Shown here: piece by piece, positions 22,287 to 25,961 of the stretch
How positions within the stretch are numbered: position 1 is the stretch's first letter
Layout: every line of letters begins with the position of its first letter
From: Aquipuribacter hungaricus
Lineage (GTDB): Bacteria; Actinomycetota; Actinomycetes; Actinomycetales; JBBAYJ01
Reading direction: 5' to 3'
Assembly (NCBI RefSeq): GCF_037860755.1
Contig: NZ_JBBEOI010000005.1
Span: forward strand, 1 to 62,854
Length of the DNA: 62,854 nt
Notes under the pieces: model-generated
What the model was told of the DNA's origin: nothing
The model's database searches: none
Seen by the model: the letters and a program-made list of their open reading frames with translations, nothing else
Made by a program: the position numbers and the translations under genes

Positions 22287-23090
22287 TCACGAGGTCGGGT
22301 GCTGCTCCCGGGCCGCCACCATGAGCGCGACGGCCTCGGCGGGGTCGTCGGTGAGCGTCACCAGGTCGAGGTCCTGGGTGGAGATGGTCCCCGCGTCCAG
22401 CTGGGTGCCGCGGACCCAGTCGAGCAGCCCGCCCCAGTACTCGGTGCCGACCAGGCAGACGGGGAAGGCGCGGACCTTCCCGGTCTGGACCAGGGTGAGC
22501 GCCTCGAACAGCTCGTCGAGGGTGCCCCAGCCGCCCGGCAGGACGACGAAGCCCTGGCTGTACTTGAGGAACATCGTCTTGCGGGCGAAGAAGTAGCGGA
22601 AGTTGACGGCCAGGTCGACCCAGTCGTTCATGCCCTGCTCGTGCGGCAGCTCGATCCCCAGGCCCACCGACGTCCCGCCGGCCTCGCAGGCGCCGCGGTT
22701 GGCGGCCTCCATGAGGCCCGGCCCGCCGCCGGTGATGACGGCGAACCCCTCGGCCACGAGCCGCCGGCCGATGTCCATGCCCGTGCGGTAGACCTCGGTG
22801 TCGACCGCGGTGCGCGCCGAGCCGAACACCGACACCGCGGGACCGAGCTCGGCGAGGGCACCGAAGCCCTCGACGAACTCGCTCTGGATCCGGAGCACGC
22901 GCCACGGGTCGGAGTGCACCCAGTCGGCCTCGCCCCGGTTCTCCAGCAGGCGCGTGTCGGTGGTGGACGTCGGCGTCTGCCCGCGCCGGAACCCCACCGG
23001 GCCCTGCCGGTGCCAAGCAGACGCATCGTCGGTGACCAGGGGGCCGACCGACCCGCCACTCCCCGCGTCGCCAGGCTCTGAATCTGTCAC
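22287..23090 (-). CDS. LOG family protein (cytokinin riboside monophosphate phosphoribohydrolase-like)
   Basis: 267 aa. The LOG/TIGR00730 signature is clear: VSVFGSARTAV, ITGGGPGLMEAANRGACEAG and the catalytic PGGWGTLDELFEAL. Such enzymes release adenine-type bases from nucleoside monophosphates. The GTG at 23090 follows TAGGCT by 6 nt (leaderless). A 103-bp part of its 5' region (22902-23004) recurs almost exactly at 25797-25899 inside a truncated second copy, so the promoter and first ~30 codons may have been supplied by the inserted DNA on its right. Confidence 0.9.
   Translation of the reverse strand: MTDSEPGDAGSGGSVGPLVTDDASAWHRQGPVGFRRGQTPTSTTDTRLLENRGEADWVHSDPWRVLRIQSEFVEGFGALAELGPAVSVFGSARTAVDTEVYRTGMDIGRRLVAEGFAVITGGGPGLMEAANRGACEAGGTSVGLGIELPHEQGMNDWVDLAVNFRYFFARKTMFLKYSQGFVVLPGGWGTLDELFEALTLVQTGKVRAFPVCLVGTEYWGGLLDWVRGTQLDAGTISTQDLDLVTLTDDPAEAVALMVAAREQHPTS
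22902..23004. repeat. Left copy of the 103-bp duplication (possible attachment site)
   Basis: This segment matches 25797-25899 at 101 of 103 positions by eye, in the same orientation. It codes for the PVGFRRGQTPTSTTD to DWVHSDPWR part of the LOG protein. Similarity falls off sharply on both sides. Confidence 0.88.
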
Positions 23091-23286: not shown

Positions 23287-23567
23287 ATGACCAACACCGG
23301 AGCCGAGAACGCAGCTGCGGCGCCGAAGCGCGTCCGCGTGAGCCAGACAGAGGTCCCGAGACACATTCTCGCTGCGGCCCTGCGAGTCGCCCAGGCGCTG
23401 GAGGATCGCCACGACGGCAACGCTTCCGCTCCGATCATGGTGGCCGAGAGCGTCGGTAACACCCCCCTGCCTCATCCTGGCGTCGCACTATCACCGGCGC
23501 GGCCGTCGCTCGCGGCATCACGAACGGATCGAGATCGTCCGTGAACCCACCGGGGTCTCGGTCTGGT
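23287..23567 (+). pseudogene. Frameshifted remnant of a small actinobacterial protein
   Basis: GGGAGG stands 7 nt before the ATG. The first frame reads MTNTGAENAAAAPKRVRVSQ, then HILAAALRVAQALEDRHDG. After about residue 55 the family-like continuation TITGAAVARGITNG appears in a shifted frame, and IEIVREPTGVSVWCR in another. The order resembles a small uncharacterised actinobacterial protein (…TGAAIAYGLT…G…) that I remember but cannot name. At least two frameshifts make it a probable pseudogene. Confidence 0.5.
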
Positions 23568-23572
23568 GCAGA

Positions 23573-23831
23573 TCACACCCGTTGGCTAATCACCTGCTCA
23601 CCGCTTTCCTGGGCGAAGGCGGGTGCACCTAGGCGAAGTCCGAGCGCTGCGGCCACTCGACCGGCGGTGTCCACGATCACCCCCTGGCGACGTTCGATCA
23701 AGCCAAGGCTGGTGCGGAAGGCCTAGAAGATCCGCCACCTCATCCAGCGACATGCCTGATTGCGGCCGCTCGGCCGCGAAGGCGTCGGCTGAGGCTCGCG
23801 CAGAGGGACGGACGACGGCACGCTCGTTGAC
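23573..23831 (-). pseudogene. Decayed XRE-type helix-turn-helix regulator
   Basis: On the minus strand one frame reads SADAFAAERPQSGMSLDEVA followed by DLLG; after a frameshift the reading continues RTSLGLIERRQGVIVDTAGR and VAAALGLRLGAPAFAQESG to a stop at 23573. Together they match the XRE pattern (SLDELA...IERG...TLxRIAxALGL). No single frame covers it and no good start is visible. It may once have been the regulator of the inserted element. Confidence 0.45.
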
Positions 23832-24137: not shown

Positions 24138-24167
24138 GGCCCCCTCGCCCGGAAGAGCGAGGGGGCC
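24138..24167 (-). terminator. Strong hairpin terminator of the secreted/membrane protein unit
   Basis: A perfect 11-bp stem (24138-24148 with 24157-24167) closes an 8-nt loop, 15 nt past the stop of the 92-aa membrane protein gene. Confidence 0.85.
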
Positions 24168-24182
24168 GGGTCCTGCGGACAA

Positions 24183-24461
24183 TCAGACGTCGACGGTACG
24201 TCTACGCCAGGCCTGCCGCAGCAGCGACAGGGCTGGAGGTCCTACCAGGAAGCCCACCAAGCCCATCATGGCTGCCAGCGCCAAGGCTTCGCCCTCGGCA
24301 GCGTCGAGCCCGCCCCGGGCCATCACGTACAGGACCACGAAGTACGGGACGAGCAAGGCGAACGTGAACAGCGGCAGCGCGAACCGGGGCGGGAGGGCCT
24401 GGTAGGCCAGGCCGACGCCGAGGCTGACGATCAGGACGCCGAGCAGCACGACCCCCAGCAT
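24183..24461 (-). CDS. Small three-helix membrane protein in the insertion
   Basis: 92 aa, not assigned to a family. Three hydrophobic helices are visible (about 2-22, 28-48 and 57-77, e.g. ALPLFTFALLVPYFVVLYVM), followed by a basic C-terminus (LLRQAWRRRTV). The ATG at 24461 lies one base after the stop of the secreted protein gene (TGACATG), so the two are surely cotranscribed and probably translationally coupled. With a secreted cysteine-containing partner, an immunity or export helper role is a reasonable guess only. A strong terminator follows. Confidence 0.7.
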   Translation of the reverse strand: MLGVVLLGVLIVSLGVGLAYQALPPRFALPLFTFALLVPYFVVLYVMARGGLDAAEGEALALAAMMGLVGFLVGPPALSLLRQAWRRRTVDV

Positions 24462-24462
24462 G

Positions 24463-25296
24463 TCAGCAGGTCCCGAACCACGGGTACATGGCATTGCCGG
24501 GGAGGGGGTGGTGGTTGACCCGCAGGCACTTCCCACCGGCCAGCTGACCGGTGCTGATTCCGGCGAACACCCCACAACCGAGGGCGAGCGCCTTACCCGC
24601 GGGGTGCGGGGACTTGTTCAGCAGGCCCACGCAGCCCAACGCGTTCCCCATCATGATGTAGGACTCGTTCTTGGTGAAGTACCAGGTGAAGCCATACCAG
24701 CGGGTCTTGACGGTCGGGTCGGCGACGACCGGGAAGGCCGTGTTGGCGTCGGTCTCAACGACCTGGATGAGCTTGGGCCCGCGCACCTCGTAGTGCGTGG
24801 GGACCGCGACGCCGTTGGCGTCCACGGCCCAGGGGGCTTCGATGGTGCCGACGAGCTCGTTGTCCTTGACCACTGAGATTGTCTGGATGCCCGCCTCTGT
24901 GAAGGTCTGCAGCTCAGCGCCGCGGAAAGTCCAGCTGGCCCTGGCACTGGAGTTCTGCAGCACTGCAGACAGGCGGGCGTTCCCCTCGCCCAGGTCGTCC
25001 GCGGCATAGGTCATGCTCGACCCGCCGGACAGCAGCAGCTCGCCGCTCGTGCTGGTTGCACCGCCGCCGTCGAAGGCGACGTCGAGGCCGCCGAGCCTGA
25101 CCCCGGCACCCGCGGGCGCGGGGGCGACGGAGGTGATGTCGGGGGTGACCGTGGCGGCCGGGACGGCTGCCTCGGCTGCGCTGATGGTGCTGTGGATGCT
25201 TGTCGTCGATGCTTGTGCCGGCGTCACGAGCATCGTCGCGGTGACGGCGACCGCCGCAAGCATGACGCCCGCACGTCGACTGGTCCTCAGGTACAT
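24463..25296 (-). CDS. Secreted protein with VVADP motif and four-cysteine C-terminus
   Basis: 277 aa. A Sec signal peptide (1-29: RTSRR, then VMLAAVAVTATMLVTPAQA, cleavage likely after AQA) is followed by a beta-rich middle (65-185), then FPVVADPTV (188-196), a motif I have seen in many small exported actinobacterial proteins. The last 65 residues are glycine-rich with Cys222, Cys241, Cys257 and the final residue Cys277. The cysteine count and hydrophobic GCGVFAGISTG stretch would suit a disulfide-stabilised toxin or bacteriocin released after cleavage, but this is inference. A purine-rich GAGGGG precedes the ATG. Confidence 0.75.
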   Translation of the reverse strand: MYLRTSRRAGVMLAAVAVTATMLVTPAQASTTSIHSTISAAEAAVPAATVTPDITSVAPAPAGAGVRLGGLDVAFDGGGATSTSGELLLSGGSSMTYAADDLGEGNARLSAVLQNSSARASWTFRGAELQTFTEAGIQTISVVKDNELVGTIEAPWAVDANGVAVPTHYEVRGPKLIQVVETDANTAFPVVADPTVKTRWYGFTWYFTKNESYIMMGNALGCVGLLNKSPHPAGKALALGCGVFAGISTGQLAGGKCLRVNHHPLPGNAMYPWFGTC

Positions 25297-25772
25297 GTCG
25301 TTCCCCTCGTCCCCCCCCGAACCCGTTGTTCGGGAACCAGCGGACCGTACTGGCAAAGTTGGACCCCTGTCAGTACCCGTCAGCGCGTGCTGACAAGGTC
25401 GTTGACGAAGCCGGGCAGACCGGGCGCCCCACCCGGCAACAGTCGCGTAGATGCCCCGAGTCAGATGACTCCCCGGAAGACCCCCGTGCCGAAGCTGCGC
25501 GAACATGGCGCCCGCCCAGGTGCCCTGGAGAGGCTGGCTGTCAAGCGCCTAGAAGACCGTGAGCGATACCGCCGGGCCCCCCCGCCCTGGAGTCTCACAA
25601 GCCGCGAGCTGAGCGGCGGCGGCTGTGCGCTCGCTCTGGCGCAAGACACAGAGCCGTCGACGCTGACCCATGGTCGACGGGAACTGGAGCACAACTAGGC
25701 CGCACTCGAAGAGTGGCTACGACCCGATCACCGACGAAGGGCCGTTGAGACGAAGGCCGTTGACCTGCGAAA
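25297..25772. other. Non-coding or decayed right part of the insertion
   Basis: About 475 bp. It should contain the promoter of the secreted protein gene. A plus-strand frame from 25465 (MTPRKTPVPKLREHGARPG...) and an opposing minus-strand frame exist but lack ribosome sites and recognisable homology. I do not call a gene here. Confidence 0.4.
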
Positions 25773-25961
25773 CTAATTGGCGCGCGTCACAGACCTCCAC
25801 GGGTCGGAGTGCACCCAGTCGGCCTCGCCCCGGTTCTCCAGCAGGCGCGTGTCGGTGGTGGACGTAGGCGTCTGCCCGCGCCGGAAGCCCACCGGGCCCG
25901 GCCTGTGCCAGTCCTTCTCGTCCGGCCCCGGTCGGGTGGTCGCACCAGCCTCGTCGCTCAC
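25773..25961 (-). pseudogene. Truncated 5' end of a LOG family gene
   Basis: 62 codons. The start MSDEAGATTRPGPDEKDWHR differs from the intact copy, then PVGFRRGQTPTSTTD to DWVHSDPWR is the same, and the frame ends after SVTRAN where the insertion begins. The intact LOG gene (22287-23090) continues at exactly this point with VLRIQSEFVEGFG. TAGGGT lies 6 nt before the GTG, so the fragment still has a leaderless-type promoter. It is most simply the original 5' end of the LOG gene left behind by the insertion; a 62-aa peptide may still be made. Confidence 0.8.
25797..25899. repeat. Right copy of the 103-bp duplication
   Basis: Matches 22902-23004 except for two substitutions seen by eye. Beyond its left end the insertion-specific sequence starts; beyond its right end the N-terminal codons differ from those of the intact gene although the proteins stay similar (WHRPG versus WHRQG). 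Confidence 0.88.

Follow-up and report, generated by a model that had tools for sequence, protein, structure and literature searches.

Two adjacent minus-strand genes of Aquipuribacter hungaricus most probably encode a secreted bacteriocin and its membrane immunity protein, with a prodomain that would be cut off at Asp193-Pro194 and a released domain that would act at the membrane of relatives. They lie in a window of 62,854 nucleotides, the whole stretch of DNA that was analysed (contig NZ_JBBEOI010000005.1). The first gene (P0001; 24463..25296) encodes a 277-aa protein that reads as a bacteriocin/toxin preproprotein, with a signal peptide at residues 1-29 (by inspection MYLRTSRRAGVMLAAVAVTATMLVTPAQA|S, ending in AQA|S), a beta-rich prodomain at about residues 55-193 and a mature domain at residues 194-277. 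The second gene (P0002; 24183..24461) encodes a 92-aa three-helix membrane protein, which its three hydrophobic segments and its homologues mark as the probable cognate immunity protein. The toxin stop codon (TGA) is at 24463-24465 and the ATG of the 92-aa gene follows one base further on. An earlier note on this DNA had described a Sec-exported protein and a three-helix membrane protein one base apart, and both open reading frames (ORFs) are as claimed.

The 277-aa protein would be exported by the Sec pathway, and once it is outside the cell, a cut between Asp193 and Pro194 in the VVADP motif would remove its beta-sandwich prodomain. An 84-aa cationic domain (+6), held by two disulfides, would be released and would most likely insert into the cytoplasmic membrane of related bacteria or act there. 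The 92-aa membrane protein, co-transcribed with the toxin, would bind the mature domain in the membrane of the producer, giving self-protection. The prodomain would be a shared carrier, with other bacteria putting different toxin domains behind the junction, each with a partner gene of its own. What comparison and prediction show is the layout of the precursor, its conserved junction, the exchange of C-terminal domains, the pairing pattern of the cysteines, and partner genes that are linked to the toxin and co-vary with it. We infer killing, cleavage, the membrane target and protection alike.

The gene pair and its insertion

Both ORFs of the pair are coding, but they are foreign in composition. 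Third-position G+C is 0.88 in each, and two host genes in the same window have values of 0.96-0.99. Because this composition is of the coding type and homologues exist for both, the ORFs are genes and not chance frames. A G+C-rich hairpin with a 13-bp stem (-34.3 kcal/mol, z -3.4) lies 3' of the pair (24138..24167, minus strand) and is a likely transcription terminator. The strong hairpin that had been assigned to the pair is real, though it has no U-tract, which is why a simple terminator scan missed it. The promoter/terminator scan found no E. coli-type promoter or U-tract terminator at the pair, an absence that is expected for a high-G+C actinobacterium. Just 5' of the toxin ATG is a palindrome, CCCGAAC-AACGG-GTTCGGG (25300-25335), which has a spacer of 5, is not a standard SOS box and is not common to the relatives. 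An SOS/LexA operator was considered as a shared regulator and was rejected after the regions 5' of 84 relatives were checked, since it is not common to them.

The pair sits in an insertion of about 2.9 kb at the 5' end of a LOG-family gene. In both sister (congeneric) genomes this site is empty, and the LOG gene is uninterrupted and has the same peptidase gene as its neighbour. The insertion is flanked by direct repeats of 114 bp, which are 96% identical overall and fully identical over their first 69 bp. The left copy (22902-23015) is inside the intact LOG-family gene (PF03641, 22287-23090) and the right copy (25797-25910) is a remnant of the native LOG-gene 5' end. The G+C content is 67-69% in the insertion compared to 76.5% in the flanks. 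Given the uninterrupted gene in the sisters and the repeat copies, the element appears to have integrated into the 5' end of the LOG gene and to have supplied a replacement start. The arrangement as a whole, with its 114-bp target repeat, resembles the outcome of site-specific integration within a coding gene by an element whose integrase has been lost. A domain search of the remaining open frames of the insertion found no integrase or other known domain. The empty sites, the bounding repeat and the G+C contrast confirm the insertion that the earlier note had proposed. That the pair comprises its only intact genes is also right as far as is visible; there is no further intact recognisable gene inside it, and the rest consists of broken frames. 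The note's idea that selection may have kept the pair is a conjecture, as all homologues are too distant for a dN/dS comparison. One frameshifted remnant at about 23560-23780 (minus strand) reads as a small helix-turn-helix regulator (LDEVADLLGLP and RTSLGLIERRQGV, in two frames) and has no Pfam match.

This setting raises another explanation, namely that the pair used to function as a bacteriocin locus and is now a relic, decaying inside a defunct mobile element, and that its ORFs are open only since the insertion is recent. The broken frames in the remainder of the insertion, a G+C content still unlike that of the host and the lack of the insertion in both sister genomes all fit a relic. However, both ORFs are intact, the signal peptide, junction, four cysteines and partner gene are all in place, and the toxin retains every conserved family feature. 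We regard a relic as improbable.

Relatives, junction and C-terminal domains

Relatives were found by tblastn in 66 of 396 genomes of the order, in 21 plasmid records and in two phages, Microbacterium phage Min1 and Paenibacillus phage BN12. The BN12 relative is annotated as a 'putative closticin'. A profile of the middle domain (A1) had matches in 48 of 222 genomes of one actinobacterial family and in 22 of 396 genomes of a phylum sample. A viral contig scan gave no relative. Neither protein of the pair matched a curated family in Pfam, NCBIfam or PADLOC, and PHROGs gave no usable family. NCBIfam models matched none of the 50 members of the P0001 class, and PDB sequence searches gave no match. 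Matches of the pair's proteins to SpoVAB and AI-2E were below the cut-off and were dropped. In phage Min1, a member and a 61-aa membrane partner (orf64/orf65; L038 2521-3655) are located just after the holin region, possibly as a phage-carried bacteriocin.

The comparison set consisted of 92 non-redundant relatives sharing the prodomain. In the 277-aa protein, the conserved part of this prodomain (24718..25017, minus strand) has the pattern APWAxDAxG...VPTxYxxxGxxLxQxV...[FY]PVVAD, which is common to all 92 relatives, and it is predicted by AlphaFold2 with a pLDDT of about 80-97. The prodomain ends in the junction [FY]P[VI]xxDP in 92/92 relatives, 90 of which have ADP. The middle part of the 277-aa protein ends accordingly in TAFPVVADP, with Pro194 as the last residue of VVADP. 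The motif and Cys222, Cys241, Cys257 and Cys277 in the 84-aa tail are where the earlier note had placed them, and conservation of the junction, which it had asked about, extends to every relative.

The junction is followed by a C-terminal domain of 55-150 aa in 91 of the 92 relatives, and this domain varies. After filtering, 53 relatives have a hydrophobic, Cys-terminal tail like that of P0001, 17 have a DUF2599-like tail, five a closticin-like tail, three EndoU and three DUF4258. A Rhodococcus plasmid protein with the same module carries a TNT domain. Unrelated C-termini were found in 27 of 45 pairs with similar prodomains, and clearly divergent prodomains were found in 11 of 23 pairs with similar C-termini. 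Judged from sequence, a prodomain with swapped tails is the pattern of polymorphic toxins. There is no DUF2599 domain in P0001. Microbacterium sp. MYb66 has a second apparent member (L004 3078-3539, minus strand) with a DUF2599-like tail after YPVVADP and its own membrane ORF, arranged back to back with the P0001 homologue.

The cleavage point had been placed after VVADP. It is more likely to be before the proline of this motif (AD|P), which in the 277-aa protein makes Asp193-Pro194 the likely site. This placement was chosen because a closticin-like bacteriocin from Bacillus altitudinis is assumed to begin with proline (Pro-Asp-Trp-Ser-Lys) and because closticin 574 is cut outside the cell (PMC10888436). 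The preprotein of closticin 574 has 309 aa, of which 27 form the signal peptide, and the cut yields an 82-aa bacteriocin (PMC10888436). By the same reasoning, the predicted mature domain of P0001 would be the 84 residues from P194 to C277 (24466..24717, minus strand), with four cysteines and a net charge of +6, arranged as a strand hairpin, helices and a second strand hairpin.

Partner genes

To quantify the linkage of the two genes, ORFs that start between 40 bases before and 60 bases after the toxin stop were counted as partners, and the other ORF ends in the same loci served as controls under an identical selection rule. Small ORFs with two or more membrane helices lie 3' of 35 of 59 relatives, compared to 2.1% of 765 control ORF ends. 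With at least one membrane helix, the numbers are 45 of 59 relatives and 5.6% of controls. In the P0001-like class, a membrane-protein gene adjoins 46 of 53 members; loci L020, L032, L053 and L059 have no obvious membrane partner. The earlier note had held that the pairing would be in doubt if the toxin were commonly found without the membrane gene, and this is not the case among homologues of the same subfamily.

The type of partner follows the type of toxin. Cys-class toxins are paired with small membrane proteins, and the enzyme-type domains have soluble partners: DUF4258 toxins are paired with a DUF2283 protein (E 5.7e-14) and EndoU toxins with soluble proteins of 177-187 aa. Across 51 loci, partner similarity correlates with C-terminal similarity (rho 0.20, or 0.19 as a partial correlation given the prodomain; Mantel p 0.001), compared to a rho of 0.08 with prodomain similarity; in this correlation, species relatedness is controlled through the prodomain only. 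The toxins nearest to P0001 by tail are L005 and L004, and their three-helix partners align with P0002 at 30-32% identity. Identity between P0002 and the partners that align to it is only 27-32% in general. These data suggest that the 92-aa protein is probably a cognate immunity protein that would protect the producer.

The earlier note had left two options, a toxin with its immunity protein or a secreted factor with its receptor. A peptide signal, too, could be secreted, have a conserved processing junction and be linked to a membrane protein, and the pair could in principle consist of an exported signal or cell-surface factor and the membrane receptor for it, with no toxin. A signalling pair does not predict EndoU, TNT and DUF4258 behind this prodomain and junction in other proteins. 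The partners are also very short, mostly 60-120 aa, no signalling domain was found in those scanned, and the module is present in two phages. We therefore disfavour the signalling explanation and consider it very improbable. The toxin and immunity reading is supported by the partner linkage, the pairing of the cysteines, the kept junction and the known toxin domains behind the same module.

The mature domain and comparison with known systems

The number of cysteines is even in 90 of 91 C-termini. Within the P0001 class, there are four cysteines in 38 members, only the last two in 14 and six in one. The earlier note had proposed the conservation of the four cysteines as a point to check, with non-conservation speaking against it. 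Cys257 and Cys277 hardly vary, and Cys222 and Cys241 form a pair that is either kept whole or missing. Because of this pattern, the mature domain probably contains two disulfides, 222-241 and 257-277. Beyond P194, conservation is limited to Cys257, Cys277 and a partly kept E-T/S. The mature domains of the class have a mean net charge of +5.7, and their helices are hydrophobic and rich in Ala/Gly.

With 48 family members, AlphaFold2 gave a mostly confident prodomain, rich in beta strands (pLDDT, averaged over ten residues, mostly 75-97), and a tail of strand, helix hairpin and strand. The tail alone, modelled with 50 members, had a mean pLDDT of 84.5 and a pTM of 0.70, with two strand hairpins around two to three helices. 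In this model, the proposed disulfides would join two helices (222-241) and close the second strand hairpin (257-277). In a structure search, the prodomain weakly resembled beta-sandwiches of the sugar-enzyme type (best Z 9.1, rmsd 3.1 over 138 residues). No solved fold matched the mature domain convincingly in this search (the best hit, at Z 4.9, resembled ribosomal L11), an absence that does not prove a new fold.

The membrane is our best guess for the target of the mature domain, because of its hydrophobic helices, its charge, its membrane partner and an analogy with the ionophore toxins of contact-dependent inhibition (CDI) systems. CDI ionophore toxins have a hydrophobic domain, and their immunity proteins are small, polymorphic, hydrophobic membrane proteins of 72-100 residues with about 30% identity within groups (PMC11630599). 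The A. hungaricus pair likewise combines a hydrophobic toxin domain with a small membrane protein. However, the CDI toxins are five-helix bundles delivered by CdiA, in contrast to the predicted strand hairpins around helices and the two putative disulfides of the P0001 domain. A CDI ionophore toxin was rejected as the identity of P0001, which is a 277-aa protein with a predicted beta-alpha-beta mature domain and no CdiA region.

Another possible explanation is that the mature domain blocks a surface target (a cell-wall precursor or a membrane enzyme) and that the membrane partner shields this target, which would leave the logic of bacteriocin and immunity unchanged. Membrane-protein partners also fit a membrane-bound target, and the predicted fold, in which the putative disulfides would fix two strand hairpins around the helices, is not a plain pore-forming bundle. 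However, the few residues conserved beyond P194 include none that look catalytic, and the hydrophobic helices and mean charge favour action at the membrane. A surface target is possible but unlikely, and we prefer membrane action.

Closticin 574 reportedly comes from Clostridium tyrobutyricum, in work said to be that of Kemperman et al. from 2003. Like the 277-aa protein, closticin 574 and the BN12 closticin are Sec-type preproproteins of about 300 aa with a VVADP or IVADP junction and a C-terminal mature part of 82-84 aa. The prodomain and junction of the BN12 protein are homologous to those of P0001 (44% identity over 73 aa), and a small multi-helix membrane ORF adjoins its gene, as in the P0001/P0002 pair. 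In contrast, by profile comparison, closticin-like mature domains are unrelated to the P0001-class domain (class A, A7 vs A8; hhalign probability 0.2%). The closticin type has one cysteine near each end of the mature domain, whereas P0001 has four cysteines and a strand/helix/strand plan. When the mature peptide of the closticin-like B. altitudinis bacteriocin was made in vitro, it did not inhibit two indicator strains (PMC10888436).

Polymorphic toxin systems (e.g., WapA/Rhs, LXG and CDI) are described as one conserved N-terminal module with many exchangeable C-terminal toxin domains and a neighbouring immunity gene for each (Zhang et al. 2012, PMC3482391). The P0001 family shares the conserved N-terminal module, the exchangeable toxin tails and the cognate partner gene directly 3'. 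It differs in its short precursor, which has a Sec signal peptide only and from which a freely diffusing protein is probably released, with no large contact-dependent stalk or secretion system. The available part of PMC3482391 does not mention 'closticin' or 'DUF2599'. Taken from sequence comparison, the pair would be a processed bacteriocin of the closticin type with the modular build of polymorphic toxins, closticin-like by layout and junction and not by mature domain.

There is about an even chance that these genes represent a large unnamed system of Sec-secreted polymorphic bacteriocins across Actinomycetota and some Firmicutes. Such a system would combine one beta-sandwich prodomain and its Asp-Pro release site with many exchangeable warheads. 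The commonest warhead would be a new fold, braced by disulfides and active at membranes, and small membrane proteins matched to it would confer immunity. The comparison suggests that closticin 574, so far apparently an isolated oddity among bacteriocins, is perhaps one warhead of a common delivery module. The motif [FY]P[VI]xADP, as a single sequence hook, would let many candidate antibacterial proteins of Gram-positive bacteria and their immunity genes be found and paired. It also points to a likely role for orphan domains, among them DUF2599; 17 relatives have DUF2599-like tails behind the prodomain that they share with P0001. In Streptomyces proteins of 700-900 aa (L108 1096-4139; L083), the prodomain and a closticin-like tail follow a large extra N-terminal region, and the module is therefore also built into bigger proteins.
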